Source of the DNA: an uncultured Clostridia bacterium
Lineage (GTDB): Bacteria; Bacillota; Clostridia; Christensenellales; Borkfalkiaceae
Assembly: GCA_947629535.1 (NCBI GenBank)
Contig: CANREC010000001.1
Coordinates: 22,460-86,459, forward strand
Length of the DNA stretch: 64,000 nt
Reading direction: 5' to 3'
Positions 41,588 to 57,608 of the stretch are shown piece after piece. The stretch's first letter is position 1. Each line of letters opens with the position of its first letter. The notes below the pieces were generated by a model. That model saw only the letters and a program-made list of their open reading frames with translations, was not told the origin of the DNA and searched no databases. The position numbers were made by a program, and so were the translations under genes.

Positions 41588-41669
41588 GAATTCCCCGAAA
41601 AGAATTTCCCAAACCTCTTTCCTTTTTGAAAAGTATGTGGTATAATATGGTAGAAATACGGAGGTTGAT

Positions 41670-42632
41670 ATGAAGAGAATCGGTTTACTCACCAGTGGCG
41701 GCGATGCACCCGGTATGAACGCAGCGATCCGCGCGGTCGTCCGTACGGCCATCTACTTCGGCATGGAAGTTTACGGGATCGAACGCGGCTACGCGGGTCT
41801 CATTGAGGACAGCATGCGCCAGATGGAGATGCGTTCCGTCTCGGACATCGTGCAGAGAGGGGGGACCATCCTCCGCACCGCAAGGTGCCTTGAGATGCTG
41901 ACCGTCGAGGGCCAGAAACAAGCTGTCGCCACGCTCGAAAAGCACGGGATCGAAGGGCTCGTCGTCATCGGCGGTGACGGAAGTTTCCGCGGGGCAAAGT
42001 GCCTCACCGAGGACTACGGCATCCCCACGATCGGCATTCCGGGTACGATCGACAACGATCTTCAGTACACCGATTATACGCTCGGATTCGATACGGCAGT
42101 CAATACCTGCCTTGAGATCATCAACAAACTTCGCGACACGATGAATTCCCACGAACGCATCTCCGTCGTCGAGGTCATGGGCCGCCACTGCGGCGACATC
42201 GCCCTGTATGCGGGCATCACGTCGGGTGCCGAGATCATTGTCGTCCCTGAGATCGCATATGACCTTGAGGACATCGTCATGCGCATCAACCGTTCCCGTG
42301 CCAACGGGAAACGCTCCAATATCATCGTCGTTGCGGAAGGCGCCGTGACGGCCGACGCTTTCGCCAAGAAATTGCAGGAAGTGACGACCTATTCCGTCCG
42401 TGCCACGACGATTGGGCACATCCAGCGCGGCGGTTCGCCCTCCATGGCGGACAGAATGCTCGCTGCCCAGTTCGGCAACAAGGCGGTGCGTCTCCTGAAG
42501 GACGGCATCGGCAACCGTGTCGTCGGCATTCACAAGAACGAGATCATCGATATGGATATCATTGAAGCCGTCTCCATGAAGAAGAAGTTCAATTATGAAC
42601 TCTATGAGACCCTTCAGATGATCTCCATGTGA
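41670..42632 (+). CDS. pfkA: ATP-dependent 6-phosphofructokinase
   Basis: It phosphorylates fructose-6-phosphate in glycolysis. The 320-residue protein has the ATP loop GLLTSGGDAPGMNAAIRAVVR, GGDGSFRGA, the catalytic GIPGTIDNDLQYTDYTLGFDTA and VEVMGRHCGDIAL. Gly rather than Lys in GGDGS is the mark of an ATP-using rather than PPi-using enzyme. ACGGAGG precedes the ATG, and a TATAAT lies about 25 bases upstream of the start. It is followed 61 bases later by a PfkB-type kinase. Confidence 0.96.
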   Translation: MKRIGLLTSGGDAPGMNAAIRAVVRTAIYFGMEVYGIERGYAGLIEDSMRQMEMRSVSDIVQRGGTILRTARCLEMLTVEGQKQAVATLEKHGIEGLVVIGGDGSFRGAKCLTEDYGIPTIGIPGTIDNDLQYTDYTLGFDTAVNTCLEIINKLRDTMNSHERISVVEVMGRHCGDIALYAGITSGAEIIVVPEIAYDLEDIVMRINRSRANGKRSNIIVVAEGAVTADAFAKKLQEVTTYSVRATTIGHIQRGGSPSMADRMLAAQFGNKAVRLLKDGIGNRVVGIHKNEIIDMDIIEAVSMKKKFNYELYETLQMISM

Positions 42633-42693
42633 CCGATCGAGAATTTTCGCGGCTGTTTCAAAGGGGGGATGGCCCGCGGAGGGGGAATAAGAA

Positions 42694-43617
42694 ATGATTT
42701 TAACTGTCTGCATGAGCCCGAGCGTAGATGTCACCATCGAGCTTGATTCACTGAACGTCGGCAAAGTCAATGTCGTCAAGTCCAAAACGCTCTCCTTTAC
42801 GGGGAAGGCGCTGAACGTCGCCATCGGCATCGCAAGACTGGGCGGGGAATCGCTCGCTACGGGTTTCATGTATAACGAGAACGGCCAGATGTTCATCGAC
42901 GCGCTCGACCGTGAAGGGGTACGGTTCTCTTTCGTCTGGAACAGCGGCCGCGTACGCGAAAACTACAAATGTATCGACAAACGCTCGATGCTCACCGAGA
43001 TCAACGACGTCGGCGGCAGAGTGGAGAGCGAGAAACTCATCGAACTTCTGCACATGATCCAATCGTCCTCGTCCTCGGCGGATGTCACTGTCATATCGGG
43101 CAGCCTTCCGCGCGGCGTGGACGACGGGTATTATCGGGAACTCTTCCGCTCGGTCGATCCGAAGTCGCTCCGCATCGTCGATACGGAAGGGGACAGATTG
43201 TTTGCCGCACTTGAGGCGGGGGTCGATCTCGTGAAACCCAATCTCGAGGAGCTCGAGAACACCTTGGGACGCAAACTCAAAACGAGGACGGAGATGCTTT
43301 CGGGCTGTCATGAACTTCTTGACCGCGGCGCGAAGAGCGTTCTTCTCTCCCTCGGCGGGAACGGTGCGATCCTGACGAACGGCACCAAGAACTATTATTG
43401 CAAGAGCATCAACGTGGCGGTCAATTCCACCGTCGGCGCGGGAGATGCGATGGTCGCGGCGGCCGCGAACATGATGCGGCAGGGCGCCGATCTGCCCGAG
43501 ATCCTGCGTGCGGGCGTCGCTGCGGGGACCGCGGCGGTGACGACGTTCGGGACGATCTCCTTCACAAAGGAAAAATATGAGGAGATCCTGAGCAATCTCC
43601 GCGTCTCCGAATTCTGA
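42694..43617 (+). CDS. PfkB-family sugar-phosphate kinase (1-phosphofructokinase-like)
   Basis: The 307-residue ribokinase-fold enzyme begins ILTVCMSPSVDVTIEL. It has the sugar-site GKALNVAIGIARLGG, VISGSLPRGV, KPNLEELENTLG and the anion hole/catalytic base NSTVGAGDAMVAA. These fit the FruK/LacC/PfkB branch, most like 1-phosphofructokinase or tagatose-6-phosphate kinase. No PTS or fru regulator is adjacent; its neighbour is pfkA, so a role in central hexose phosphate metabolism is inferred. GAGGGGGA precedes the ATG. Confidence 0.82.
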   Translation: MILTVCMSPSVDVTIELDSLNVGKVNVVKSKTLSFTGKALNVAIGIARLGGESLATGFMYNENGQMFIDALDREGVRFSFVWNSGRVRENYKCIDKRSMLTEINDVGGRVESEKLIELLHMIQSSSSSADVTVISGSLPRGVDDGYYRELFRSVDPKSLRIVDTEGDRLFAALEAGVDLVKPNLEELENTLGRKLKTRTEMLSGCHELLDRGAKSVLLSLGGNGAILTNGTKNYYCKSINVAVNSTVGAGDAMVAAAANMMRQGADLPEILRAGVAAGTAAVTTFGTISFTKEKYEEILSNLRVSEF

Positions 43618-43714
43618 GCGAGGACGGCACACACTATTTTGAAAATGAATGCGTTTTCCGTGTAACAAATGCGCCGTCTGTTTCATGCGCATAATTCGCC
43701 ATAATTCGGCACAA

Positions 43715-43762
43715 CCACAATATATAGTGGTCGACGAAAAAATTTTTATCAAAATGTTGTGC
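43715..43762 (+). promoter_or_regulatory. Tandem NrdR boxes upstream of nrdDG
   Basis: Box 1 CCACAATATATAGTGG (43715-43730) closely matches the NrdR consensus. Box 2 TATCAAAATGTTGTGC (43747-43762) matches about 10 of 16 positions. Their starts are 32 bases apart, three helical turns, the spacing NrdR needs. Confidence 0.8.
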
Positions 43763-43769
43763 CAAACAC

Positions 43770-43798
43770 TTGACTTCTATTCGAATATGTTGTATGAT
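43770..43798 (+). promoter_or_regulatory. nrdDG promoter candidate
   Basis: TTGACT (43770-43775), 17-nt spacer, TATGAT (43793-43798), just downstream of the second NrdR box. Confidence 0.6.
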
Positions 43799-43801
43799 AA
43801 G

Positions 43802-43828
43802 AGCGTTCCCTTCGGGGAACGCTTTTTC
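43802..43828 (+). terminator. Hairpin with T run at the nrdDG transcript start
   Basis: AGCGTTCCC-TTCG-GGGAACGCT followed by TTTT. It could stop read-through from the PfkB-type gene or act as an attenuator; the predicted start of transcription falls inside its left arm. Confidence 0.6.
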
Positions 43829-43871
43829 GCCCTTTCGGGGGAAAGTACGGGAACAGAGCAAGGAGATTTTT

Positions 43872-46040
43872 ATGAAGATCATCAAAAGAAACGGGGCAGA
43901 AGTCAGTTTCGATATTCAAAAGATCGTCAGTGCGATCCGCAAGGCAAACAACGAAGTCAGTGCCGACAACCGTCTCAGCGAGGGGCAGATCCGCTCGATC
44001 GCGGAGAAGGTCTCTGCGCTTGCGGGAGATCTCAACCGCGCGGTCAACGTGGAGGAGATACAGGACTTTGTCGAGAACCAGATCATGGATCAGAAGGCGT
44101 TTGCCGTGGCGCGCAAATATATCACCTACCGCTATTCCCGTGCGCTCATCAGGAAGGCCAATACCACCGATGAGAGGATCCTGACGCTCATCGAATGCAA
44201 CAACGAGGACGTCAAGCAGGAAAATTCCAATAAAAATCCCACCGTCAATTCCGTCCAGCGCGACTATATGGCGGGTGAAGTCAGTAAGGACCTCACCAAG
44301 CGCCTTCTTTTGCCCCGCGAGATCGTCGAGGCACACGAGGAGGGGCTCATCCACTTCCACGACGCCGACTATTATGCACAACACATGCACAACTGTGACC
44401 TCGTCAATCTTGAGGACATGCTCCAGAACGGTACGGTCATCTCGGGGACGTTCATCGAGAAACCGCATTCCTTCTCCACGGCATGCAATATCGCGACGCA
44501 GATCATCGCACAGGTCGCTTCCAACCAATACGGCGGGCAATCCATTTCTCTTACGCACCTTGCGCCCTTCGTCGATATCAGCCGCCAGAAGATCCGTGCT
44601 GAAGTCGCCGAAGAGCTCTCCGATGTCGCCGTCATGGAGGATACGATCAACCGCATCGCCGAGAAGAGACTGCGCGAGGAGATCAAAAAGGGCATTCAGA
44701 CCATTCAATATCAAGTCGTGACCCTTCTCACGACGAACGGGCAGGCGCCCTTCGTCACCGTCTTTATGTACCTCGGCGAGGCAAGGAACGAGCGGGAGAG
44801 GGAGGACCTCGCCATGATCATCGAGGAGACGCTCAACCAGCGCATTCAGGGCGTCAAGAACGAATCGGGCGTCTGGGTAACGCCTGCCTTCCCCAAGCTC
44901 ATCTATGTGCTCGAAGAGGACAACGTCCGCGAGGGGAGCAAATACTTTTATCTCACCGAACTTGCGGCCCGTTGCACGGCAAAACGTATGGTCCCCGATT
45001 ACATTTCCGAGAAGAAGATGCTTGAATACAAGGTCGACCGCAACGGGGAAGGGCACTGCTATACCTGCATGGGCTGCCGCAGTTTCCTGACGCCCTATGT
45101 GGACGAGAACGGCAAGCCCAAGTATTACGGAAGATTCAACCAAGGCGTCGTGACGATCAATCTCGTCGATGTAGCGCTCTCTTCGGGCGGGGATATCGAT
45201 AAGTTCTGGAAGATTTTCGATGCGCGGCTCGATCTCTGCTACAGGGCTTTGATGTGCCGTCATGAAAGATTGAAGGGGACGCTCTCCGACGCTGCGCCCA
45301 TTCTCTGGCAGTACGGTGCGCTTGCAAGGCTCAAAAAGGGAGAAAAAATCGACAAATTGCTCTATGGCGGGTATTCGACGATCTCCCTCGGCTATGCGGG
45401 CCTCTATGAATGCACGAAATTCATGACGGGAAAATCTCATACCGATCCCGAGGCGAAACCCTTTGCGCTCTCCGTCATGCAGCACATGAACGATAAATGC
45501 AAGGAATGGAAACAGAAACACAATATCGATTTCTCGCTCTACGGTACGCCGCTTGAGAGCACGACCTATAAATTCGCCAAGTGCCTGCAGCAGCGGTTCG
45601 GCATCATCCCTGGCGTTACAGACAAGAATTACATCACGAACAGCTATCACGTCCACGTCACAGAAAAGATCGACGCCTTCACAAAGCTCAAGTTTGAGAG
45701 CGAGTTTCAGCAGCTCTCCCCCGGCGGCGCGATCTCATATGTGGAAGTCCCCAACATGCAGGACAATATTCCCGCCGTCATCTCGGTCATGCAGTTCATC
45801 TATGACAATATCATGTACGCTGAACTCAACACCAAGAGCGACTACTGTCAGGTATGCGGCTATGACGGGGAGATCGTGACGGTGGAAGAGGACGGAAAGT
45901 ATATCTGGGAATGCCCGCATTGCCACAACCGTGACCAAAGCAAGATGAATGTCGCCCGCCGTACCTGCGGCTACATCGGTACGCAGTACTGGAATCAAGG
46001 CAGGACGCAGGAGATCCGCGAAAGGGTATTACATCTCTGA
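43872..46040 (+). CDS. nrdD: Anaerobic ribonucleoside-triphosphate reductase, class III
   Basis: This glycyl-radical enzyme makes dNTPs without oxygen. The 722-residue protein has an N-terminal ATP-cone (KIIKRNGAEVSFDIQKIVSAIRKAN) for allosteric control, the ten-stranded barrel with active-site Cys residues (CYTCMGCRSFLTPY), a C-terminal zinc site (CQVCGYDG..CPHCHN) and the glycyl-radical loop RRTCGYIGTQYWNQGRTQEI. The ORF track's 43770 is replaced by ATG 43872 with AAGGAG. It is cotranscribed with its activase nrdG. Tandem NrdR boxes upstream indicate dNTP-sensing repression. Confidence 0.97.
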   Translation: MKIIKRNGAEVSFDIQKIVSAIRKANNEVSADNRLSEGQIRSIAEKVSALAGDLNRAVNVEEIQDFVENQIMDQKAFAVARKYITYRYSRALIRKANTTDERILTLIECNNEDVKQENSNKNPTVNSVQRDYMAGEVSKDLTKRLLLPREIVEAHEEGLIHFHDADYYAQHMHNCDLVNLEDMLQNGTVISGTFIEKPHSFSTACNIATQIIAQVASNQYGGQSISLTHLAPFVDISRQKIRAEVAEELSDVAVMEDTINRIAEKRLREEIKKGIQTIQYQVVTLLTTNGQAPFVTVFMYLGEARNEREREDLAMIIEETLNQRIQGVKNESGVWVTPAFPKLIYVLEEDNVREGSKYFYLTELAARCTAKRMVPDYISEKKMLEYKVDRNGEGHCYTCMGCRSFLTPYVDENGKPKYYGRFNQGVVTINLVDVALSSGGDIDKFWKIFDARLDLCYRALMCRHERLKGTLSDAAPILWQYGALARLKKGEKIDKLLYGGYSTISLGYAGLYECTKFMTGKSHTDPEAKPFALSVMQHMNDKCKEWKQKHNIDFSLYGTPLESTTYKFAKCLQQRFGIIPGVTDKNYITNSYHVHVTEKIDAFTKLKFESEFQQLSPGGAISYVEVPNMQDNIPAVISVMQFIYDNIMYAELNTKSDYCQVCGYDGEIVTVEEDGKYIWECPHCHNRDQSKMNVARRTCGYIGTQYWNQGRTQEIRERVLHL

Positions 46041-46065
46041 GTTTACGGCAGTCCCGAAAGGGGGA

Positions 46066-46599
46066 ATGAGAAAATTTTACGCCATGAACTACGCCGAAAT
46101 CAAAAAATATGATATTGCAAACGGAGAGGGAGTCAGAGTCTCCCTCTTTGTTTCGGGTTGCAGGCGGCACTGCAAGGGTTGTTTCAATTCTGTCGCGTGG
46201 GATTTTTCTTACGGAAAACCCTTTACCGCCGACACAGAAGAGGAGATCTTTGAGGCACTTTCGCCCGATTATATTGCGGGGCTGTCTCTTCTCGGCGGAG
46301 ATCCATTTGAACCGGAGAATCGGGCCGCTCTTCTTCCTTTCCTCCAAAGAATGCGGCAAAAGTTCCCGCAAAAAGATGTCTGGTGCTATACGGGCTATAC
46401 ATACGAAAACGGTTCCTTGAAGGAGATGAACGGAGATGGGATAGGGGAGATGCTCTCCTGCATCGACATTCTCGTGGACGGACCCTTCATCGAGGCGCTG
46501 AAGGACATCCGACTGAAATTCCGAGGCTCATCCAACCAACGGGTACTCGATTTGAAACGCACAATTAAGGAGAATAGCATAGTACTATATCTGACATAG
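46066..46599 (+). CDS. nrdG: Anaerobic ribonucleotide reductase activating protein
   Basis: This radical-SAM activase generates the glycyl radical on NrdD. The 177-residue protein has SGCRRHCKGCFN with the CxxxCxxC [4Fe-4S] motif, LLGGDPFEPENR for SAM binding, and VDGPFIEALKD near the end. Start ATG 46066 follows AAGGGGG closely; ATG 46084 (MNYAEIKKYD) is an equally likely start by family alignment. The last codons and the TAG stop lie inside copy 5 of the dispersed palindrome, so the C-terminal residues (VLYLT) are repeat-encoded. Confidence 0.94.
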   Translation: MRKFYAMNYAEIKKYDIANGEGVRVSLFVSGCRRHCKGCFNSVAWDFSYGKPFTADTEEEIFEALSPDYIAGLSLLGGDPFEPENRAALLPFLQRMRQKFPQKDVWCYTGYTYENGSLKEMNGDGIGEMLSCIDILVDGPFIEALKDIRLKFRGSSNQRVLDLKRTIKENSIVLYLT

Positions 46600-46606
46600 T
46601 ACTATG
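46578..46606. repeat. Dispersed palindrome copy 5 (across nrdG stop), most complete
   Basis: Left arm CATAGTACTATATC (46578-46591), centre T, right arm GACATAGTACTATG (46593-46606): 14-bp arms with a single mismatch. The nrdG TAG is at 46597-46599 within it. The reverse-complement flank ATTTTG is shared with copies 1 and 4. Confidence 0.9.
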
Positions 46607-46663
46607 CAAAATGGCGAAAATTTGAGATTTCGATATCAATTTTTCGCTTTTTTCGTTATGCGG

Positions 46664-46691
46664 TTGACTTTGGAAAAAAATGGGTTATAAT
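46664..46691 (+). promoter_or_regulatory. Promoter of M29 aminopeptidase gene
   Basis: TTGACT (46664-46669), 16-nt spacer, TATAAT (46686-46691). Confidence 0.7.
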
Positions 46692-46732
46692 AATAGGGTA
46701 ACATTTAACATTTTAATAAAGGAGAAAAGGCA

Positions 46733-47962
46733 GTGAACAAGTTACAGCTCAGAAGATATGCGAAACTTCTCGCAAAAACGGGCATCAACGTCAAAAAAGG
46801 GCAATGGGTCGTCGTACAGGCGGAGCTCGATCAGCCCGAATTCGTGGAAATGGTCGTAGAGGAACTCTACCGCGCGGGGGCGGGGAAAGTCACCGTCGAC
46901 TGGTCGCACCAGCCGCTCGTTTCCACACATTACAAGTATCAAAAGCAAGATCTGCTCGAATCTTTCGCAAAATGGGAGATCGAGAAACTCGAATACAGAA
47001 AGGAACAGCTTCCCGCGATGCTCTATCTTGAATCGGCCGATCCCGATGGGCTCAAGGGGCTTGACCAAGAGAAGTTTACGGCCGTGAGAATGGCCCGCTC
47101 GAAGGTCATCAAGCCCATCCGTGACGAGATGGAAAACAAATACCAGTGGTGTATCGCCGCCGTTCCTTCCAAGGCGTGGGCGAAGAAGGTATTTCCCGAC
47201 GCTCCGACTTCGAGCAGCGCCGTCGAGAGACTTTGGGACGCCATTTTGACGGCCTCCCGCGCGGACGGCCCCGATCCCGTGAAGGATTGGCATCGTCACA
47301 ACGATGAACTTGCCGAAAAATGCGACTATCTCGACAGACTGAAACTTGTCTCTCTCGAGTATAAAGCCAAAAACGGCACGGATCTGAAGGTCGGCCTCAT
47401 CGACGGCAGCAGATTCTGCGGCGGTGGCGAAGAGACGCTTTCGGGCGCATATTTCAATCCCAATATCCCGAGCGAGGAGATCTTCATCTCCCCCAAGGCA
47501 GGGCAGGCAGAGGGCATCGTCTATTCCACCAAACCGCTCTCCTATCAGGGCGAGCTCATCGAGGACTTTTCCGTCCGTTTCGAGGGCGGCAAGGTCGTCG
47601 AGGTCAAGGCGAAAAAGAACCAAGAACTGCTCGAAAAGATGATCTCGATGGACGAGGGCTCCAAGATGCTCGGCGAATGCGCACTCATTGCCTATGATTC
47701 TCCCATCAACAATACGGGACTTCTCTTCTACAACACGCTCTTTGACGAGAACGCAAGCTGCCATTTGGCCCTCGGGAGAGGATTCAACGAGTGCGTCAAG
47801 GGCTTTGAGGACATGACGAAGGAACAGCTCAAGGAGAAGGGGATCAACGACAGCATGATCCATGTCGATTTCATGATCGGGAGCGAGGACCTCGATATCG
47901 TCGGCGTCACGAAGAGCGGCGAGCGGGTGCAGATCTTCAAAAACGGCAGTTGGGCATTCTGA
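46733..47962 (+). CDS. M29-family aminopeptidase (AmpS/PepS-like)
   Basis: This cytoplasmic metallo-aminopeptidase trims N-terminal residues from peptides. The 409-residue protein shows the family's RRYAKLLAKTGINVKKGQWVVV start. It also has VDWSHQPLVSTHYKY, FNPNIPSEEIFISPKAG with the metal-ligand Glu, and a C-terminal SEDLDIVGVTKSGERVQIFKNGSWAF. GTG start with GGAG at 8 nt. It has its own promoter and is probably monocistronic or leads into the CobW genes 37 bases downstream. Confidence 0.93.
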   Translation: MNKLQLRRYAKLLAKTGINVKKGQWVVVQAELDQPEFVEMVVEELYRAGAGKVTVDWSHQPLVSTHYKYQKQDLLESFAKWEIEKLEYRKEQLPAMLYLESADPDGLKGLDQEKFTAVRMARSKVIKPIRDEMENKYQWCIAAVPSKAWAKKVFPDAPTSSSAVERLWDAILTASRADGPDPVKDWHRHNDELAEKCDYLDRLKLVSLEYKAKNGTDLKVGLIDGSRFCGGGEETLSGAYFNPNIPSEEIFISPKAGQAEGIVYSTKPLSYQGELIEDFSVRFEGGKVVEVKAKKNQELLEKMISMDEGSKMLGECALIAYDSPINNTGLLFYNTLFDENASCHLALGRGFNECVKGFEDMTKEQLKEKGINDSMIHVDFMIGSEDLDIVGVTKSGERVQIFKNGSWAF

Positions 47963-47999
47963 TGTCAAAGAGGCAATTTCATAGAAAGAAGGCATTAAA

Positions 48000-49064
48000 A
48001 TGATAAAAATCGATATTTTTTCGGGTTTTTTGGGCGCTGGAAAGACGACGCTCATCAAAAAACTTATCAAAGAGGCCTATTGTGGAGAAAAGGTCGTTCT
48101 CATCGAGAATGAGTTCGGCGAGATCGGCGTCGACGGAGGATTCCTTAAGGAAGCGGGCATTGAGATCACTGAAATGAACTCCGGGTGTATCTGCTGTTCG
48201 CTCGTCGGAGACTTCGCCGAGGCGCTCAAAAAAGTCGCCGCCGAATTTTCTCCCGACCGCATCCTCATCGAGCCTTCGGGCGTCGGCAAGCTCTCCGACG
48301 TCATCAAGGCCGTACAGAGGGCAAACGTGCCCGACAGCGTTCTCAACGCTTTCTGCACCGTCGTTGACGCGAAGAAGTGCAAAGTCTACCTGCGCAATTT
48401 CGGTGAATTTTTCCTCGATCAAGTCGAGAATGCAAGCTGTATCGTGCTCTCGCATACGTCCGATCCCGAAAAGACGGTGGAAGCGGTCTCTCTGTTGAAG
48501 GAACACACGCAGGCCACGGTCATCACGACGGACTGGAACGAGCTCGACGGCGGGGAGATCCTTCTCGCCATGCAGCAGACGGACAGCCTCAAGGCCGAGC
48601 TCGACAAACTCGCCGCCGAGGCCCACGAGGAAGATGACGACGATGATGACGAATGCGGATGCCATCATCACCATCACGACCATGACCATGATCATGAAGA
48701 TGACGACGATGATGACGATGACGAATGTGAATGTCATCATCACCACGACGGGGAAGAGCATGAGCATCATCACCATCACCACCATCATCACGCGGACGAA
48801 GTGTTCACCAGTTGGGGCGTGGAGACGGCAAAGATATTCTCTGTGGAGAAACTTGAAAAGGCGCTTGACGCGCTCTCATCGGGTGAGTTCGGGCAGGTGC
48901 TCCGCGCCAAGGGTTATGTGAACGGCGGAGAACAGTGGATCTATTTCGATTACGTTCCCGGGGAGCCCGATATCCGAACAGGTTCGCCCGCCGTCACGGG
49001 CAGGCTCTGCGTCATCGGCTGCAAACTCGACGAAGAAAAGCTGAAAGCGCTGTTTTTGGGGTAA
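48000..49064 (+). CDS. CobW/COG0523 G3E GTPase with His/Asp-rich metal-binding stretch
   Basis: This 354-residue putative metallochaperone GTPase has Walker A SGFLGAGKTTLI, NEFGEIGVDG, the CxCC metal motif in SGCICCSL, and the E-P-S-G and nucleotide motifs of the G3E class. Between the GTPase and the CobW C-terminal domain (residues about 211-263) lies a striking run of Asp, Glu and His with a few Cys (such as ECGCHHHHHDHDHDH), typical of zinc or nickel storage/delivery. It is followed four bases later by a second CobW-like gene. GAAGG precedes the ATG. Confidence 0.93.
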   Translation: MIKIDIFSGFLGAGKTTLIKKLIKEAYCGEKVVLIENEFGEIGVDGGFLKEAGIEITEMNSGCICCSLVGDFAEALKKVAAEFSPDRILIEPSGVGKLSDVIKAVQRANVPDSVLNAFCTVVDAKKCKVYLRNFGEFFLDQVENASCIVLSHTSDPEKTVEAVSLLKEHTQATVITTDWNELDGGEILLAMQQTDSLKAELDKLAAEAHEEDDDDDDECGCHHHHHDHDHDHEDDDDDDDDECECHHHHDGEEHEHHHHHHHHHADEVFTSWGVETAKIFSVEKLEKALDALSSGEFGQVLRAKGYVNGGEQWIYFDYVPGEPDIRTGSPAVTGRLCVIGCKLDEEKLKALFLG

Positions 49065-49067
49065 AAT

Positions 49068-50018
49068 ATGCCGAAGGAAGTTCCCGTCTACCTGTTTTTG
49101 GGCTTTCTCGATGCAGGAAAGACGAAGTTTATCCAAGAGACCTTCGAGGACGAGCGGTTCGATTCGGGCGAAAAGACGCTCCTCCTCGTCTGTGAAGAGG
49201 GCGAAGAGGAATACACGCCTTCTCGCTTTGCCGTGAACAAATATGCCGTCGTCAAGGTGGAGGAAAGCGGCCTCAATATGGCCAACCTTACCAAGATCGC
49301 ACGGGAGAACGGCGCCGAGCGCGTCGTCGTGGAGTGGAACGGCATGATGCTCCTTGATAAATTCTTCGAGGCGATGCCCGATGGCTGGCTCATTGCACAG
49401 GTGATGACCTTCTTTGACGCGAACACTTTTTTGAGCTATAACACGAACATGCGGCAGTTGGTTTTTGACAAGATCACCTATGCCGATATGATCGTTTTCA
49501 ACCGTTTCAACGAGGGGCTCAAGAAGGAAGAATTCCACAAGATCGTCCGTGCGGCCTCCCGCCGTCCCGATATCGTCTATGAATATGTTGGCGGAAGAGC
49601 CGAATATGATGACATCGAGGACCCGTTGCCCTATGACATCAATGCGTCCGTGATCAACGTCGAGGACAGGGACTTTGCCTATTTCTATCGCGACATCCGC
49701 GAGGAGACCGAGAAATACGACGGGAAAACGGTGCATTTCAAGGGCATCGCCGCGGTCGACAGGAAGATGAAGGGGGGGACGTTCGGCATCGGCCGTCTCG
49801 TCATGACCTGCTGTGCCGCCGACATCGCCTATCACGGCCTTGTCTGCATCGGGGACGAAAGTTTCCATGTCAGAACAAACGACTGGCTCACCGTCACGGC
49901 TCGAGTCGATATCGAATATCACAAACTTTACGGAACGAAGGGTCCCGTTCTCAAGATCTTTTCCGCCGAACACACTCTGCCCCTTCCCGAGGGAGAAGAG
50001 GTCGCAACATTCTATTGA
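49068..50018 (+). CDS. CobW-like GTPase fused to a YcgQ/DUF1980-like C-terminal domain
   Basis: The 316-residue protein has an N-terminal P-loop FLGFLDAGKTKFI like CobW proteins but no CxCC motif. Residues about 215-316 (GKTVHFKGIAAVDRKM, FGIGRLVMTCCAADIAYHGLVC, NDWLTVTARVDIEY) match the pattern of the C-terminal domain of YcgQ (TIGR03943/DUF1980), a partner of a permease-like YcgR. In B. subtilis that pair is linked to zinc homeostasis. The Cys pair in VMTCCAAD is the family's hallmark. The fusion links a metal GTPase to this domain in a single chain. It follows the His-rich CobW by three bases. Confidence 0.8.
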   Translation: MPKEVPVYLFLGFLDAGKTKFIQETFEDERFDSGEKTLLLVCEEGEEEYTPSRFAVNKYAVVKVEESGLNMANLTKIARENGAERVVVEWNGMMLLDKFFEAMPDGWLIAQVMTFFDANTFLSYNTNMRQLVFDKITYADMIVFNRFNEGLKKEEFHKIVRAASRRPDIVYEYVGGRAEYDDIEDPLPYDINASVINVEDRDFAYFYRDIREETEKYDGKTVHFKGIAAVDRKMKGGTFGIGRLVMTCCAADIAYHGLVCIGDESFHVRTNDWLTVTARVDIEYHKLYGTKGPVLKIFSAEHTLPLPEGEEVATFY

Positions 50019-50030
50019 TCGGAGCTGCAC

Positions 50031-50504
50031 ATGAAAAAACTTTTGGTTTACTATTCCTTCGGAGGAAACACGCGCACCGTCGCGCGGCGCATCGCCAAAC
50101 AGGTCGGCGCCGACCTTGCCGAGATCCGCACAGTGAAAAATTATCCCGATGACTACGACGTCCTCGTAAGTCTTGGAAAGAAGGAAGTGGAGAGCGGATA
50201 TGTTCCGCAACTCTATCCTCTTCCCGTGAACGCGCAGGAGTACGATACTGTCATCATCGGTACGCCTGTCTGGTGGTACACCTTTGCGCCCGCCGTCAAG
50301 TCCTTTCTGAAAACGGTCGACTGGAAGGGAAAGTCTGTCTATCCTTTTGCGACGAACGGGGGATGGCTCGGCCATACGCCGAGCGACTTCCGTAAGGCGC
50401 TCAAGGGGGCCAAGGTCGGGGACGTATTGAGCATCAAATTCGATGAAAAGACGATGCTGACACCCGCAGGCGCCATTGACGCATGGGCGGAGACCATCAA
50501 GTGA
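50031..50504 (+). CDS. Flavodoxin family protein
   Basis: The 157-residue protein has the FMN phosphate loop VYYSFGGNTRTVARRIA and the isoalloxazine-side TPVWWYTFAPAVKSFL, matching the flavodoxin-4/long-chain NADPH-dependent type common in anaerobes. It is presumably an electron carrier or quinone/disulfide reductase; the partner is unknown. It sits 12 bases after the CobW fusion and its stop overlaps the GTG of the methyltransferase gene. Confidence 0.87.
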   Translation: MKKLLVYYSFGGNTRTVARRIAKQVGADLAEIRTVKNYPDDYDVLVSLGKKEVESGYVPQLYPLPVNAQEYDTVIIGTPVWWYTFAPAVKSFLKTVDWKGKSVYPFATNGGWLGHTPSDFRKALKGAKVGDVLSIKFDEKTMLTPAGAIDAWAETIK

Positions 50505-51373
50505 ACGGATTGGAGGAGCTCCTTGCGGCGGACTATGGAAAGGAGATCGCTGAGAAGATCGCCGCAGGCTATAGATACGAGCGTCCCGTTACGCTCCGTA
50601 TCAACACGCTGAAAATACCTCTCCAAGAGGGAAAAACCGCCCTTTTCGAGGCGGGTTTTTCGTTTGAAGAGGTCAAATGGTTCGGGAGCGCGCTCATCGT
50701 CAGAGACCGCAGCGAAAGGGATCTTTGGCGCACGCCGCTTTTCGAAGAGGGGAAGATCTATCTTCAAAGTCTTTCGTCCATGCTCCCGCCGCTCTATCTC
50801 GACCCGAAGGAGCGGGAGAGCATTCTCGACATGACGGCCGCCCCCGGCGGAAAGACGACAGAGCTTTTGGCACTCTCGCAGGGAAAGGCGCTCATCACTG
50901 CCTGTGAACGGGACAAAAACCGTTTTCAGCGCCTCATGTTCAACCTTGCGCGGCAAGGTGCGGAACGGGTCGCAGCGCTGTGCCGCGACGCGCTGACGCT
51001 CGACGACAGGCTTTCCTATGACAAGATCCTTCTCGACGCCCCTTGCAGCGGGAGCGGGACGGTGTCTTTTTCGAAACCTGCCCGTATCGACGCCGCATAT
51101 GTGGAAAAATGTGCGAATTTGCAGGAAAAACTTCTCTCAAAGGCTCTAAAACTTTTGAAAAGGGGCGGAGAGATGGTCTATTCGACATGTTCTGTCCTCA
51201 AACGGGAGAACGAAGAGGTCATAAAGCGTACGCTGAAAAAGGGCGGCGCGCATATTCTTCCCGTTGAGGCATTCGAGGGCGTTCCGACGCTCCCGAGCGC
51301 AGAGGGGACGCTCTGCATCCCGCCGACGGAGCTGTACGAGGGATTCTTCCTCGCAAAGATCGTAAAGGAATAA
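50501..51373 (+). CDS. RsmB/RsmF-type RNA (cytosine-5) methyltransferase
   Basis: The 290-residue NSUN-family enzyme has the SAM loop DMTAAPGGKTTELLAL, ACERDKNRFQRL, motif IV LLDAPCSGSGT with one catalytic-cycle Cys, and motif VI YSTCSVLKRENEEVI with the nucleophilic Cys. It contains only the N-terminal segment and catalytic core; the C-terminal PUA-like region of RsmF is absent. The GTG start overlaps the flavodoxin stop. It presumably methylates rRNA, but the exact site cannot be told. Confidence 0.9.
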   Translation: MNGLEELLAADYGKEIAEKIAAGYRYERPVTLRINTLKIPLQEGKTALFEAGFSFEEVKWFGSALIVRDRSERDLWRTPLFEEGKIYLQSLSSMLPPLYLDPKERESILDMTAAPGGKTTELLALSQGKALITACERDKNRFQRLMFNLARQGAERVAALCRDALTLDDRLSYDKILLDAPCSGSGTVSFSKPARIDAAYVEKCANLQEKLLSKALKLLKRGGEMVYSTCSVLKRENEEVIKRTLKKGGAHILPVEAFEGVPTLPSAEGTLCIPPTELYEGFFLAKIVKE

Positions 51374-51398
51374 ATAGGGAATGGCCCGTTTCGGCCGT

Positions 51399-51433
51399 AA
51401 AAAAAGAGGGGAACGATGTTCTCCTCTTTTTTT
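51399..51433. terminator. Bidirectional intrinsic terminator
   Basis: AAAAAAAGAGG.GAAC and GTTCTCCTCTTTTTTT form a stem with A and T runs between the convergent methyltransferase and spoVG. Confidence 0.9.
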
Positions 51434-51435
51434 GA

Positions 51436-51723
51436 TCAATCATCCGAACCGTCTTCGGTGGGCCGCTCGAGAAATGCTTTGTAGCTTTCCAAAATCGTGT
51501 TCTGGATGTATTCCCGAGTTTCGGTATTCAGCGGGTGCGCAATATCCTTGTAGGTGCCGTCGGACGCTTTGCGGCTCGGCATTGCTACGAAACACTCGCC
51601 GTCCCGCTCGAAGATCCTGATGTCGTGCACGACAAAACAATCGTCGATCGTGATCGATGCGACCGCGCGCAGTTTCCCGTCGGTGTGACGCACTTGGCGA
51701 ATCCTGACATCTCCGATTTTCAT
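51436..51723 (-). CDS. spoVG: Septation/regulatory protein SpoVG
   Basis: This 95-residue nucleic-acid-binding regulator is conserved in Firmicutes and was first defined by its effect on spore cortex/septation. DVRIRQVRHTDGKLRAVASITIDDCFVVHDIRIFE and FVAMPSRKASDGTYKDIAHPLNTETREYIQ are diagnostic; the Arg/Lys residues of the PSRK segment contact nucleic acid. A GGGAGG motif precedes the ATG. It is divergent from murC, with a palindrome in the shared upstream region. Confidence 0.97.
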   Translation of the reverse strand: MKIGDVRIRQVRHTDGKLRAVASITIDDCFVVHDIRIFERDGECFVAMPSRKASDGTYKDIAHPLNTETREYIQNTILESYKAFLERPTEDGSDD

Positions 51724-51800
51724 TGGTTGATCCTCCCCTATGTCTTTCTGTTCATAATGTTACCACATTTTCATCAAAACATCAAGAGTTATCGAAAAAA

Positions 51801-51820
51801 TTTAGTTAATTTTAACTAAA
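51801..51820. repeat. Palindrome between spoVG and murC
   Basis: TTTAGTTAA and TTAACTAAA are perfect 9-bp arms separated by 2 nt, just upstream of the murC promoter. It is too tight for an RNA hairpin, so a protein binding site is more likely. Confidence 0.5.
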
Positions 51821-51821
51821 A

Positions 51822-51851
51822 TTCACATAAATTTTTTTCTTTACATACGAT
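51822..51851 (+). promoter_or_regulatory. murC promoter candidate, leaderless type
   Basis: TTCACA (51822-51827), 18-nt spacer, TACGAT (51846-51851), then 5 nt to the ATG; no Shine-Dalgarno sequence. Confidence 0.5.
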
Positions 51852-51856
51852 GCGGT

Positions 51857-53185
51857 ATGGATTTTGCCGAAATTTCCGCCGTTTCAGGCGTTTATTTCAT
51901 CGGGATCGGCGGGGTGAGCATGAGCGCTCTGGCCATGTGCCTCTATGATAAGGGGCTTAAGGTGCGCGGTAGCGACGCGCAGGAGAGCGCTTTTACCCAT
52001 AAACTCCGCGGCTACGGGATCCCTGTATCCATCGGAGAGGATGAGCCAATTTGGGAGGAACTCGTCGTTGTAACGGGCGCCATCCTCCCCGAACACAGGC
52101 AACTTCGGAAAGCGCTCGGGGAGAATAAGAAGATCCTGTCGCGGGCCGAACTTCTCGGAGCGGTAGCGGGAGAGTTCCCGCATACGGTCTCCGTCGCGGG
52201 CTGTCACGGGAAAACGACGACGTGCTGTATGCTTGCGCATATCCTCAAGGAGAACGGAAAGCCCTTTACCTGCCACATCGGCGGGGAGGATCTGGAGCTC
52301 GGGAACTATCACAGCGAGGGGGACGGCTACTTTGTCACCGAGGCATGTGAATTCAAACGCAGTTTCCTGGAGCTGAAGAGCGAGATCGGCGTCGTGCTGA
52401 ACTGCGACAGAGACCATACCGATTGCTACAAGACGAAGGCGGAGCTGCTTGCGGCCTATCGGGAATTCGCCGCGAAGTCGGAAAAGGCCGTCGTCAACGC
52501 CGACGACGTGAATGCCCGCTCCATTCCGCATGTGCTTTCCTTCGGCATGCACAATGGGGACATCCGCGCGACTTCTCTCCGCTGCGACAGAGAGATATAC
52601 ACATTCACCGTCGAGGAGAAGGGGATCCCCGTCGTTCGGATACGCCTCAACGTCGTCGGGATCTTTAACGTGATGAATGCGCTTGCATCCTATGCCTGTG
52701 CGAGATTGCTCGGCCTCTCCGCGGAAGAGATCAAGAGGGGGATCGAGAATTTCCATGGCGTCAAGCGGCGGTTTGAACGGGTCGGGACCTTTTGCGGAGT
52801 GCCGCTCATCTGCGACTACGCGCACCACCCGCGGGAGATCGCCGCGACGCTCTATACGGCACAGCGCATCACCGAGGGAAAGGTACGCCTCGTCTTTCAG
52901 CCGCATACCTATACGAGGACGCGAGACCTCATGGATGAGTTTATCGGAGCGCTGTCAAAGGCTGACGCACCCGTCATCTACAGCACCTATGCGGCGCGGG
53001 AAGGATACGACTTTGAGGGGAGCGCGGTACGCCTCACGGGAATGATCCCGTCCGCCGTCTATATCTCTTCCCCCAAACGGCTTTCCGATTATCTGAAGAG
53101 GAAAGTACAGCCGCGGGATCTGATCTTGGTCCTCGGCGCGGGGAACATCTATGAGATCGCAAGATCCATCGTCGATAAAAAGTAA
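51857..53185 (+). CDS. murC: UDP-N-acetylmuramate--L-alanine ligase
   Basis: It adds L-Ala to UDP-MurNAc in peptidoglycan synthesis. The 442-residue protein has the N-terminal Rossmann domain (VYFIGIGGVSMSALA), the ATP loop VAGCHGKTTTCCML, the central-domain LNCDRDHTDCYKT with the conserved His/Asp, and the C-terminal ligand region RFERVGTFCGVPLICDYAHHPREI. The ATG at 51857 has no Shine-Dalgarno sequence and lies 5 nt after a -10-like box, which predicts a leaderless mRNA. A perfect terminator follows. Confidence 0.96.
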   Translation: MDFAEISAVSGVYFIGIGGVSMSALAMCLYDKGLKVRGSDAQESAFTHKLRGYGIPVSIGEDEPIWEELVVVTGAILPEHRQLRKALGENKKILSRAELLGAVAGEFPHTVSVAGCHGKTTTCCMLAHILKENGKPFTCHIGGEDLELGNYHSEGDGYFVTEACEFKRSFLELKSEIGVVLNCDRDHTDCYKTKAELLAAYREFAAKSEKAVVNADDVNARSIPHVLSFGMHNGDIRATSLRCDREIYTFTVEEKGIPVVRIRLNVVGIFNVMNALASYACARLLGLSAEEIKRGIENFHGVKRRFERVGTFCGVPLICDYAHHPREIAATLYTAQRITEGKVRLVFQPHTYTRTRDLMDEFIGALSKADAPVIYSTYAAREGYDFEGSAVRLTGMIPSAVYISSPKRLSDYLKRKVQPRDLILVLGAGNIYEIARSIVDKK

Positions 53186-53186
53186 C

Positions 53187-53219
53187 ATCTCGGCAAATCT
53201 CGGCCGAGATTTTTCTTTT
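53187..53219 (+). terminator. Intrinsic terminator after murC
   Basis: ATCTCGGC (53187-53194) pairs with GCCGAGAT (53203-53210), 8-nt loop, then TTTTCTTTT. Confidence 0.85.
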
Positions 53220-53251
53220 GAAAAAAGAGGGCAAAAATTTGTATTTTGGTA

Positions 53252-53280
53252 TTGAAAGTACGCGCAAAATATAGTATAAT
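53252..53280 (+). promoter_or_regulatory. Promoter of glycogen operon
   Basis: TTGAAA (53252-53257), 17-nt spacer, TATAAT (53275-53280); leader of about 60 nt before glgB. No other good promoter was seen between glgB and the GH13 gene. Confidence 0.75.
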
Positions 53281-53347
53281 AAGATAGGTCCGAGCGGGAA
53301 AGCATCGCGTCAAATGATTTTCCGATGGATGACTTTGGGAGAAAAAT

Positions 53348-55276
53348 ATGGACAAGACGATGAAAGAGACGGATTTCCCGCTCTATCTGTACCATCACGG
53401 CAAAAACGATCGCATTTATGAGATCTTCGGCGCACACAAGACAGTCAAGGACGGCGCGGAAGGGTACATGTTCCGCGTATGGGCGCCGCATGCCAAGAGC
53501 GTTTCCGTTGTGGGGGATTTCAACGGTTGGGATCCCTCGCGGAACGTTATGGAACGGATGATCGACAATGAGTCCTTCGAACTCTTTCTCCCCGGGCTCA
53601 AACAGTACGATATATATAAATATTGTATTACGGCAGCCGACGGCAGGCAGCTCTACAAGGCAGACCCCGTGGGATTCCATACGGAGACGCCGCCTGAGAC
53701 TGCCTCCAAGCTCTATGATCTCGAGGGATATGAATGGGGGGACAAGGAGTATTTCGATGGCATTCAGAGCCGCAACATCTATTCTTCGCCCATCAATATC
53801 TATGAAGTCAATCTCCTCTCGTGGAAGAAATACGAGGACGGGAACTATCTCTCCTACCGAGATCTCGCGCGGGAGCTCGTCGCCTATGTCAAGGAGATGG
53901 GCTATACGCACGTCGAATTCATGCCTGTGACCGAATATCCCTTCGACGGGTCGTGGGGATATCAGGTGACAGGGTATTTTGCTGTCACGTCCCGTCTCGG
54001 GACGCCGCAGGACTTTATGTACCTCGTCGACTGTTTCCACAGGGCAGGCATCGGCGTCATTGTCGACTGGGTCCCCGCACATTTTCCCAAGGACGCGCAC
54101 GGGCTCTATGAATTTGACGGACAGCCTCTCTATGAGAGCAGCCAGTGGGACAGGATGGAACACAAGAGCTGGGGCACCCGCCGCTTTGACTACGGAAGGG
54201 AAGAGGTCCTGTCCTTCCTCATCTCGGGCGCATGTTTCTTCTTCGATAAATTTCATGTGGACGGGCTGAGGGTCGATGCCGTCGCGTCCATGCTCTATCT
54301 CGACTACGATAAGCGCCCGGGGGAATGGGTCCCCAACATCTACGGCGAGAACAAGAATCTCGAGGCGATCGCCTTTTTGCGCCGTCTCAACGAGGCAGTT
54401 TTCCTGCGTTTCCCGTATGCGATGATGATCGCAGAGGAGAGCACGGCGTGGGGCCTCGTCACCAAGCCCGGTTCGGTGGGAGGGCTCGGTTTCAATTTCA
54501 AGTGGAATATGGGATGGATGAACGACATGCTCTCCTATCTCTGCCTGAATCCCTATTTCCGCATGAACAACCACAATAAACTCACCTTCTCGATGATGTA
54601 TGCCTTCTCGGAGAACTATGTTCTTCCCATCTCGCACGACGAAGTCGTCCACGGGAAGTGCTCTCTGATCAACAAGATGCCGGGGACCTATGAGGAAAAG
54701 TTTGCGGGCGTCCGTGCCTTCCTCGGCTATATGGCCGCGCATCCCGGGAAGAAACTCAATTTCATGGGCTACGAGTTCGGACAGTTCAAGGAATGGAACT
54801 ATAAGGAAGGGCTCGAATTTTTCCTCCGCGACAATTATGAACTGCACGGGAAACTCTCCGTGTACGTCAAGGCGCTCAACAAGTTCTACACGGATACGCC
54901 CGCGTTCTATGAGATCGAGGACAGTTGGGACGGATTCGAATGGCTTGCACCCGACGACGCAGACAGGAACATCGTCGCATTTATCCGCAGGGACCGCGCG
55001 GGAAATGAGATCATCTCGGTAACGTCGTACTCGGGCGTCGACGCCGACGGGTATCTTCTTGGCGTCAACAAGAAGGGAAAATATAAAATTATTTTCAATT
55101 CGGACGAGAAAAAATACGGCGGAGAGGGGAAACTGACAAAGAGGACCTTCTCTGCGGTGAAAAAACCCAGTCATGGGAAACAGTATTCTCTCCAGATCTC
55201 GGTGCCGAAATTGACGACGCTTTATCTCGTCTATGAGCCGTCCGCAACCAAGAGCGGAACGCAAACAAAGAAGTAA
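53348..55276 (+). CDS. glgB: 1,4-alpha-glucan branching enzyme GlgB
   Basis: It forms alpha-1,6 branches in glycogen. The 642-residue protein has an N-terminal CBM48 (FRVWAPHAKSVSVVGDFNGWD) and the GH13 barrel. Barrel motifs are FDGSWGYQVTGYFA, VDWVPAHFP, the nucleophile Asp in DGLRVDAVASML, the acid/base Glu in MIAEEST and LPISHDEVVHG with the transition-state Asp. A C-terminal all-beta domain ends in a Lys/Thr/Ser-rich tail. It is the first gene of glgB-C-D-A-P-GH13, with GGGAG before the ATG. Confidence 0.97.
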   Translation: MDKTMKETDFPLYLYHHGKNDRIYEIFGAHKTVKDGAEGYMFRVWAPHAKSVSVVGDFNGWDPSRNVMERMIDNESFELFLPGLKQYDIYKYCITAADGRQLYKADPVGFHTETPPETASKLYDLEGYEWGDKEYFDGIQSRNIYSSPINIYEVNLLSWKKYEDGNYLSYRDLARELVAYVKEMGYTHVEFMPVTEYPFDGSWGYQVTGYFAVTSRLGTPQDFMYLVDCFHRAGIGVIVDWVPAHFPKDAHGLYEFDGQPLYESSQWDRMEHKSWGTRRFDYGREEVLSFLISGACFFFDKFHVDGLRVDAVASMLYLDYDKRPGEWVPNIYGENKNLEAIAFLRRLNEAVFLRFPYAMMIAEESTAWGLVTKPGSVGGLGFNFKWNMGWMNDMLSYLCLNPYFRMNNHNKLTFSMMYAFSENYVLPISHDEVVHGKCSLINKMPGTYEEKFAGVRAFLGYMAAHPGKKLNFMGYEFGQFKEWNYKEGLEFFLRDNYELHGKLSVYVKALNKFYTDTPAFYEIEDSWDGFEWLAPDDADRNIVAFIRRDRAGNEIISVTSYSGVDADGYLLGVNKKGKYKIIFNSDEKKYGGEGKLTKRTFSAVKKPSHGKQYSLQISVPKLTTLYLVYEPSATKSGTQTKK

Positions 55277-55297
55277 TAACCATGGGGGTTAAGTGAT

Positions 55298-56488
55298 ATG
55301 TTGAGAAAAAAGGAATGTGTGGCAATGCTCCTCGCGGGCGGGCAGGGCTCTCGGCTCTACGCGCTCACGAATAACATTGCAAAGCCCGCAGTTGCTTTCG
55401 GCGCAAAGTATCGGATCATCGACTTTCCGCTCTCCAACTGCATCAATTCGGGGATCGATACGGTCGGCGTGCTCACGCAGTACGAACCGCTTGAGCTCAA
55501 CGAATACATCGGGAACGGACAGCCGTGGGACCTTGACCGTGCGTTCGGCGGCGTGCATATTCTCTCGCCCTATCAGGCGAAGAAGAAACAGTCGTGGTTC
55601 GAAGGGACGGCCAATGCCATCTACCAGAACATTTCCTTCATGAAAAAATACAATCCCGATTATGTGCTCATCCTGTCGGGCGACCATATCTACAAGATGA
55701 ACTATGCCGAGATGCTCCGCGCACACAAGGCGACGGGGGCCGATTGCACGATCGCGGCCATCGAGGTCCCGATGAAGGAGGCTTCCCGTTTCGGCATTCT
55801 CAACACGCGTGAGGACGGTTCCATCTACGAGTTTGAGGAAAAACCCAAACAGCCCAAGAGCAACCTCGCGTCCATGGGCATCTATATCTTCAATGCCGAG
55901 AAACTCTTCAAATATCTCGAGGCGGACGACGCCGATCCCAACTCGGAGAAGGACTTCGGCAAGAACGTCCTGCCCGCCATGCTGAATGCGGGCGAAAAGA
56001 TGTTTTCCTACCGTTTCAAGGGCTACTGGAAGGACGTCGGCACAATCTCTTCTCTTTGGGAATCCAACATGGACCTTCTCGAGGACGATCCCGCCTTTGA
56101 CGTGAGCGATCCCGACTGGAAGATACATTCGAGGAACCCGCTCGCACCGCCCGAACACATCGGGGATGAGGCCGTCGTGAGCAATTCGCTCATCGCGCTC
56201 GGGTGTGAGGTCGACGGGTATGTCAAGAACTCCGTCCTTGCATCCAACGTCGTCGTCGAAGAGGGGGCGACCGTCATCGACAGCGTCCTCATGGCAGGCA
56301 CCGTCGTCAGAAAGGGGGCAAAGGTGCTCTACTCCATCATCGACGAAAACGTCACGGTCGAAGAGGGGGCTGAAGTCGGCGAATCCAAGGAGAGCGGCAA
56401 AGGCATCGCCGTTCTCGGCAGAAACATTTCCGTCGCGGGCAAGATCGCGGGCGGAGAGATCATCGATAAGGATCACAAGGGGGAATAA
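55298..56488 (+). CDS. glgC: Glucose-1-phosphate adenylyltransferase GlgC
   Basis: It makes ADP-glucose from glucose-1-phosphate and ATP, the committed step of glycogen synthesis. The 396-residue protein has the nucleotide loop [34 protein letters not shown], the sugar-binding [15 protein letters not shown] with catalytic Asp, [11 protein letters not shown] with the Lys for glucose-1-phosphate, and a C-terminal left-handed beta-helix of hexapeptide repeats. It is paired with glgD directly downstream, as in other Firmicutes. Confidence 0.96.
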
Positions 56489-56492
56489 AGAC

Positions 56493-57608
56493 ATGGCACA
56501 TTCTGCAGTCGGCGTCATTTTTTCAAATATTCACGATGAAAACATTCCCGAACTTTCCCGCCACAGAACGATGGCGTCCATTCCCTACGGCGGGAGATAC
56601 CGTCTCATCGACTTTACCCTTTCCAATATGGTAAATTCGGGCATTACGACGGTCGGGATCGTCACAAAGAACAACTACCAGTCGCTCATCGACCATCTCG
56701 GGAGCGGCAAAGATTGGGACCTTGCGAGAAAGGACGGCGGTATCATCCTTCTTCCGCCTTACTCTGATGAGACGGACGCGCCCTATACGACCCGTCTTGA
56801 GGCACTCATGGGCATCACGGGATTCTTGACGCACCGCAACGAGGACTATGTCGTCATCACGGACTGCGACGGGATCGCGCGGGTCGACCTGCAGGAGATC
56901 CTGCATTTCCATGAGGAAAAGGGAGCCGATATCACCATGGTCTACCATGAGGAAACCGAACCCGCCCAGTCCTCCTACTATATCACCCTTCAGCCCGATG
57001 AAACGGGAAGGGTGAAGGGGCTCAAGATCAATCCGAAACTCAAGAATAGTAAATATGACCTCTACGTCAACGTCATGGTGATGAGCAGGGAATTTCTCGT
57101 CAATACCATACAGGACGCCGTCACGCGCGGCCTTTCGAGTTTCGGCAGGGACATCCTCACCAAGAACGTCGATACGCTCCGCATCTTCGGTTACAAATTC
57201 GGCGGCTACTATGCGACGATCAGCTCGCTGCAAAATTATTACAGCCACAGCATGGAACTTCTTCAAAAGGAAGTCCGTGACGAGCTCTTCGGTGCCCGCG
57301 ACGTCTATACGAAGGTCCGCGATTCCGCGCCGAGCAAGTATATCGAAGGAGCTGTCGTCAAGAATTCCTTGATCTCTGACGGCTGCGTCATCGAGGGCAC
57401 GGTCGAAAATTGCATTCTCTTCCGCGGCGTGAAGGTCGGAAAGGGGAGCGTCATCAAGAATTCCATCATCATGCAGGACACCGTCATCGGCACGAATGTG
57501 AGCCTCGACGCCGTCATCACCGACAAGAACGTCGTCATCCGTGACAGGAGACATCTTGCGGGCTGCGAATCGTTGCCTTATTTCATCGCAAAGGGCAGAA
57601 TGCTCTGA
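56493..57608 (+). CDS. glgD: GlgD, non-catalytic-type ADP-glucose pyrophosphorylase subunit
   Basis: The 371-residue GlgC paralogue begins AHSAVGVIFSNIHDENIPELSRHR, so the Gly-rich PPi-binding loop is missing. IPYGGRYRLIDFTLSNMVNSGI and ITDCDGIARVDL replace the catalytic motifs, and the C-terminal hexapeptide beta-helix is retained. In B. subtilis-type systems GlgD raises the activity of GlgC in a GlgCD heterotetramer. The ORF-track frame from 56205 overlaps glgC; the ATG at 56493 is the real start, four bases after the glgC stop. Confidence 0.93.
   Translation: MAHSAVGVIFSNIHDENIPELSRHRTMASIPYGGRYRLIDFTLSNMVNSGITTVGIVTKNNYQSLIDHLGSGKDWDLARKDGGIILLPPYSDETDAPYTTRLEALMGITGFLTHRNEDYVVITDCDGIARVDLQEILHFHEEKGADITMVYHEETEPAQSSYYITLQPDETGRVKGLKINPKLKNSKYDLYVNVMVMSREFLVNTIQDAVTRGLSSFGRDILTKNVDTLRIFGYKFGGYYATISSLQNYYSHSMELLQKEVRDELFGARDVYTKVRDSAPSKYIEGAVVKNSLISDGCVIEGTVENCILFRGVKVGKGSVIKNSIIMQDTVIGTNVSLDAVITDKNVVIRDRRHLAGCESLPYFIAKGRML

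Follow-up and report, generated by a model that had tools for sequence, protein, structure and literature searches.

The fusion gene and its surroundings

The window, a stretch of 64,000 nucleotides from an uncultured gut Clostridia bacterium, carries an open reading frame (49068-50018, +) that starts with ATG and encodes a protein of 316 amino acids. Based on Pfam, TIGR03943, AlphaFold2 and Foldseek, the product was assigned as a G3E/CobW-type GTPase lacking CxCC, joined to a DUF1980_C domain of the OB-type barrel kind. The P-loop GFLDAGKT was located at residues 12-19 (49101-49124, +) in the translation and in an alignment of 81 sequences. Residues 42-49 read CEEGEEEY (49191-49214, +) and occupy the place of ENEFGExG in CxCC CobW proteins. 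Alignment with these proteins revealed that the CxCC stretch expected after this position is deleted. A Walker-B-type ExxG motif, EWNG, is present at residues 89-92 (49332-49343, +), with E89, N91 and G92 invariant. The G4 motif is degenerate and reads FNRF, or NRF, instead of NKxD. The DUF1980_C domain spans residues 191-301 (49638-49970, +) and is predicted to form an OB-type barrel, as judged from PF21537, the structure model and Foldseek. It contains RLVMTCCAAD at residues 243-252 (49794-49823, +), a Cys-Cys motif that YcgQ has as well: C248, C249 and D252 are invariant in the 81 fusion sequences, and membrane YcgQ proteins contain a motif of the RxxMxCCxAD type.

The original prediction had read this gene as coding for a GTPase of the CobW type with a YcgQ/DUF1980-like domain attached, had pointed to GFLDAGKT and RLVMTCCAAD, and had noted that the GTPase half is without CxCC. 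The profile searches bore this out. Pfam gave 32.3 bits for cobW (PF02492, cut-off 20.7) over residues 6-153 and 72.1 bits for DUF1980_C (PF21537, E=4.7e-20, cut-off 25.9) over residues 191-301. TIGR03943, which had been proposed as a further check, reached 71.7 bits, short of the 88.8 set for the whole protein, as just the C-terminal part of the model (positions 97-211 of 221) was matched. Pfam did not find CobW_C in the fusion protein, and the C-terminal half gave only DUF1980_C above the cut-off. For DUF1980_C, neither outcome named as refuting the original prediction, a score below threshold or an ordinary CobW C-terminal domain, came about. The hydrophobic N-terminal membrane part of YcgQ is absent, residues 6-153 matching the GTPase domain instead, and the sole hydrophobic window of the protein (244-262) lies inside the barrel. 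A sequence search of solved structures with the fusion protein returned no credible relative, and Rfam gave no match over positions 40000-58000.

An AlphaFold2 model was built from 54 aligned relatives (mean pLDDT 89, pTM 0.63). The model predicts a G domain up to about residue 180, followed by a five-stranded barrel; the relative placement of both domains is uncertain at this pTM. Foldseek matches of the G domain included YjiA, HypB, UreG and SRP GTPases. The barrel matched OB folds, for example those of a human CST complex subunit and of aspartyl/asparaginyl-tRNA synthetases.

The gene directly upstream (48000-49064, +) encodes a standard CobW-family GTPase of 354 amino acids (PF02492 119.4 bits, PF07683 33.7 bits). 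This protein has GCICC and CobW_C as well as a long linker rich in His and Asp, and the stop codon of its gene is 3 nt ahead of the fusion gene. A flavodoxin-family gene (50031-50504, +; PF12682) begins 12 nt past the fusion gene, and given this short gap both may therefore be on the same transcript. An M29 metallopeptidase gene (46733-47962, +; PF02073 541 bits) lies 37 nt upstream of the CobW gene, and this M29 aminopeptidase neighbor recurs in about 11 of the 80 relative loci. Inspected by eye, two further frames resemble NrdD, the anaerobic ribonucleotide reductase (43770-46040, +), complete with a four-Cys site of the zinc type, and its activase (45949-46599, +).

The genome of the window (1.70 Mb in 138 contigs, 93% complete) was searched with profiles. 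DUF1980_C matched a single gene, the fusion itself. No ArsP_1/YcgR permease, no member of the FUR family (Fur/Zur) and no ABC-3/ZnuB family member were found in this genome. Likewise, a congener (G234) and another member of the family (G192), both 99% complete, carry the fusion and gave no ArsP_1 or FUR matches. A ZIP match was detected (L187, G000:C112:1370-1789, -); it covers only model positions 179-322, within an open frame of 537 amino acids. Zur boxes had been suggested as a check as well. A scan across the loci gave no signal above shuffles, and the best match of the window, with 7 mismatches to the B. subtilis-type box and overlapping the coding start, is not convincing. As Fur/Zur and ABC-3/ZnuB were undetected, though ZIP gave a match, zinc-starvation control can only be supposed in this genome. 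Since YcgR, Fur/Zur and ZnuB were all undetected, there is no visible YcgQ/YcgR machine to which metal could be handed directly, as the original prediction had supposed.

Conservation of the fusion and of its gene pair

GTDB species genomes were scanned for relatives, which yielded at least 582 stretches encoding them; the best 80 were kept. These best 80 of at least 582 match nearly the whole query with the same GTPase-DUF1980_C architecture. Their sources are uncultured Clostridia, Oscillospiraceae and bacteria of a similar kind, the majority sampled from animal guts. Invariant in the 81 fusion sequences are G12, F13, L14, G17, K18 and T19 of the P-loop, E43-E44-G45-E47-E48-Y49, E89-N91-G92, N145-R146 and G242-R243...M246...C248-C249...D252, while C42 is kept in 78 and T247 in 80 of them. 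No cysteine other than Cys248 and Cys249 is invariant, and CxCC is absent from the window protein and from all 80 relatives. Judged by this alignment, which shows complete or almost complete conservation of P-loop, CEEGEEEY, ExNG and GRxxMTCCxxD, the fusion architecture is not a chance feature. A survey of the phylum found full-length fusions also outside the class (G561, G594), together with frames of permease-fused size (G543, G580, G600). The GTPase-DUF1980_C arrangement is real and widespread, and represents a variant form of CobW metallochaperone. Sequences of this type have already been deposited: the Vescimonas fastidiosa pair is named 'CobW family GTP-binding protein' and 'GTP-binding protein' in RefSeq. 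The arrangement itself is apparently undescribed, as we found no description in the titles and abstracts of the literature, whose coverage is partial so that absence is no proof.

A CxCC-type, His-rich CobW gene lies directly upstream on the same strand in 79 of the best 80 of at least 582 relatives; the match of the remaining one (L026) begins at a contig edge. The spacing between both genes is between -14 and +25 nt in 67 of the 79, with many overlaps of 8 nt (-8). CxCC was present in 76 of 80 CobW sequences from the window and its relatives, the other four being fragments cut at contig ends, and the same 80 sequences, some of them cut in this way, contain 17-58 His. No other neighbor of the pair is conserved among the 80 relatives beyond a minority of loci or close kin. 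Exceptions to the pairing were observed in the surveyed genomes. Genome G181 has a second fusion copy (L182:4460-5395) without an adjacent CxCC partner, while its other copy (L183) does have one. At L176, the fusion has a different CobW neighbor.

We surveyed 245 genomes of the class with profiles for DUF1980_C, ArsP_1 and the fusion. The soluble version, a CxCC CobW with the GTPase-DUF1980_C fusion, was counted by hand in 45 of the 245 genomes, two of these being partial at contig ends. The membrane version (L145-L157) consists of a CxCC CobW, then a GTPase-YcgR fusion of 509-596 amino acids, then YcgQ. The N-terminal half of this fusion is a CxCC-less GTPase and the C-terminal half the YcgR permease. 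CobW is on the opposite strand in L150 and L151, and no CobW was found within the 10-kb stretch read at L152. Pfam confirmed cobW and ArsP_1 in a single chain at L156 (4520-6100, +); the ArsP_1 half of the remaining permease-fused frames was assigned from the coordinates of the ArsP_1 survey. An unfused layout has a CxCC CobW, a GTPase of 209-218 amino acids and YcgR (L158, L159), in L158 with YcgQ too, and there Pfam confirmed separate cobW-type and ArsP_1 genes. YcgR and YcgQ also occur without a CxCC-less GTPase (L160-L162). A standalone ArsP_1 frame of this last group, beside YcgQ in G211 (L162:4365-5333, -), itself contains CxCC. Finally, short DUF1980_C proteins of 152-184 amino acids with one hydrophobic segment and without Cys-Cys were found (L165-L171, e.g. 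L166:4473-4931, -). Both the soluble and the membrane version are present in genomes G168 and G243.

The prediction that YcgQ/YcgR genes lie beside zinc genes holds for relatives of the window. Two operons with the membrane version were tested for zinc-importer and Fur-family genes by Pfam: upstream of L154 are ZnuA, an ABC ATPase, an ABC-3 permease and FUR, and upstream of L156 are ABC-3 and FUR. A ZIP zinc transporter gene lies downstream of one soluble pair (L179). When His residues were counted at the whole-genome loci of the survey, partner CobWs of the soluble version had 28-73, with the exception of L176 with 3, and CobWs at membrane-version loci had 1-16. Among the matches listed, none places ArsP_1 next to the fusion gene in the 45 fusion-bearing genomes. 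An ArsP_1 match was present in 11 of these 45 genomes versus 105 of the 200 others (p ~8e-4), a hand count that ignores genome relatedness and is weak by itself. The GTPase-YcgR fusions at L145-L157, beside YcgQ and in some loci beside zinc genes, are possibly the more striking finding.

Ancestry of the GTPase

A tree was calculated from 75 GTPase domains, comprising 40 CxCC-less GTPases, of which 25 are fused to DUF1980_C, and 35 CxCC CobWs. The CxCC-less GTPases split from the CxCC CobWs with support of 100/100, be they joined to YcgR, joined to DUF1980_C or encoded separately next to YcgR. Those fused to DUF1980_C group together (99/97) and fall within the permease-linked GTPases, although the inner branching order is only moderately supported. 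Similarly, the fusion barrels formed one group (99/98) beside the YcgQ barrels in a barrel tree.

CxCC was stated to be present in all COG0523 members and is regarded as their metal site (PMC2770081). Our alignment has CxCC in 35 of 35 CobWs, and the stretch is deleted in 40 of 40 GTPases of the CxCC-less set, which includes permease-fused and standalone GTPases without a CC domain in the same chain. Because it is absent from all 40 GTPases of the subfamily that were examined, CxCC was probably lost before the barrel was fused. Therefore, it does not follow that Cys-Cys replaced CxCC within the same chain. The simplest reading is a division of labor between the two GTPases. Gene pairing and shared ancestry, taken alone, are claims in which we place high confidence.

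A candidate two-GTPase unit for metal handling

Most likely, the window protein derives from a GTPase linked to YcgQ/YcgR, has become soluble and is paired with a CxCC CobW in zinc handling. In a conserved unit of two GTPases, the fusion gene would encode the second. The first, from the upstream gene, would be a standard CobW/COG0523 GTPase that has a His-rich stretch and CxCC as its metal site, and the second a GTPase without a metal site that carries the Cys-Cys barrel of YcgQ in place of the ordinary C-terminal domain. The membrane version of the system would comprise CxCC CobW, CxCC-less GTPase, the YcgR permease and YcgQ; the lineage of the window would have lost YcgR and, from YcgQ, the membrane part, with the barrel joined straight onto the GTPase. 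Both GTPases would bind one another in a GTP-dependent manner. The Cys-Cys barrel would receive or check the metal, most likely zinc, that the CxCC partner carries, ahead of its release to a client. That a GTP-dependent CxCC/CxCC-less pair acts in this way, with the barrel receiving or proofreading the metal, we hold to be slightly better than an even bet. The heterodimer, zinc as the metal and the transfer to Cys-Cys are what we infer from the gene pair and its kin. A subset of COG0523 GTPases has been tied to zinc (PMC2770081) and YciC belongs to the Zur response (PMC5007448).

A bolder version treats the pair as a split machine: two G3E GTPases that are unequal, since only the first has the metal site, would form an obligate GTP-dependent pair. 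In one branch the second GTPase would be built into a permease to give a GTPase-gated zinc transporter, and in the branch of the window it would carry the YcgQ barrel, acting there as a soluble acceptor of metal. We offer this only tentatively. G3E and SRP GTPases work as dimers, and SRP with its receptor has a layout comparable to the proposed unequal pair. The place of the barrel may differ between the branches. Most membrane YcgQ proteins have three hydrophobic segments ahead of the barrel. Positive charge is often strongest in the stretch linking segments two and three, and the positive-inside rule would then put the barrel on the outer side of the membrane. For the streptococcal homologue two segments were predicted (PMC5584981). 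If the barrel is indeed outside the cell in YcgQ, and cytoplasmic in the fusion, the same job cannot be assumed, and the task of the fusion's barrel may then differ from that of YcgQ.

Other explanations were weighed against this proposal. An ordinary CobW with a diverged C-terminal domain and a spurious DUF1980 match would fit the top Foldseek match over the full length, the CobW-family YjiA. However, this match has an rmsd of 10.1 and a TM of 0.42 and therefore probably rests on the G domain, while the barrel aligns with YcgQ barrels and has the Cys-Cys motif in common with them. The profile result (DUF1980_C at 72.1 bits versus 25.9, no CobW_C found) ruled this explanation out, and we give it next to no credence. 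The original prediction went further than the fusion. It proposed that the metal site had moved from CxCC to the protein's own Cys-Cys and that metal goes straight from this one chain to a membrane machine of the YcgQ type. The domain fusion is indeed real, Cys-Cys is invariant where CxCC is missing, and zinc genes adjoin YcgQ and ArsP_1 in relatives. Against a moved site stand the permease-fused and standalone kin, which are also without CxCC, and the partner next door, which keeps it. A hand-off is countered by the undetected YcgR, by the lack of another DUF1980_C protein and of the YcgQ membrane half, and by the ArsP_1 counts given above, with no neighboring ArsP_1 among the matches listed. 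We regard this model as improbable.

A third possibility leaves metal aside: the Cys-Cys barrel would be a thiol-redox or ligand sensor, possibly for nucleic acid, and the fusion GTPase would switch the CxCC CobW on or off. Vicinal cysteines are able to form a disulfide, OB-type barrels are often nucleic-acid binders, and the CxCC-less GTPase retains P-loop and ExxG without a known metal motif. The Foldseek matches of the barrel are OB folds, but such matches reflect a common fold and not function, and the context in relatives is one of zinc import, a Fur-family regulator and a ZIP gene. A sensor is thus doubtful, though less so than a moved metal site. We favor the reading of an apparently undescribed two-GTPase metal-handling module, probably with zinc as the metal.

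Compared with known COG0523/CobW proteins (YjiA, YciC/ZagA, ZigA; G3E), the fusion is alike in the cobW Pfam domain, the P-loop GxxxxGKT and ExxG, but differs by the CxCC deletion, by DUF1980_C for CobW_C and by NRF for NKxD; a true member is encoded beside it. With YcgQ (TIGR03943/DUF1980, ScfB of streptococci) it has the C-terminal barrel with RxxMxCCxxD in common, without the hydrophobic N-terminal part and without an adjacent YcgR, and its barrel is expected to be cytoplasmic. The cobW-ArsP_1 fusions of other Clostridia, such as that at L156, belong to the same CxCC-less GTPase group and have the same type of CxCC CobW partner. Unlike in the window, the permease is the fusion partner of their GTPase, and YcgQ has a gene of its own. 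In FeoB, a G protein and a metal permease are fused. The layout of the permease-fused kin is similar, with a cytosolic GTPase and a membrane transporter in one chain, but this is an analogy only, as the GTPase and permease families differ and the window protein has no membrane part.

YcgQ and YcgR, named ScfAB in streptococci, are a conserved pair of Gram-positive bacteria with no known function, and they matter for the fitness of Streptococcus pyogenes in mice (PMC5584981). Three gene layouts link YcgQ/YcgR to a dedicated CobW-type GTPase pair, with zinc import and Fur genes in two operons. For this membrane pair of unknown function, a testable idea arises: GTPase-assisted metal handling. Free of a membrane part, the soluble version would lend itself to purification and assays. 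The main interest lies in what the relatives say about YcgQ/YcgR, more than in the single fusion gene.
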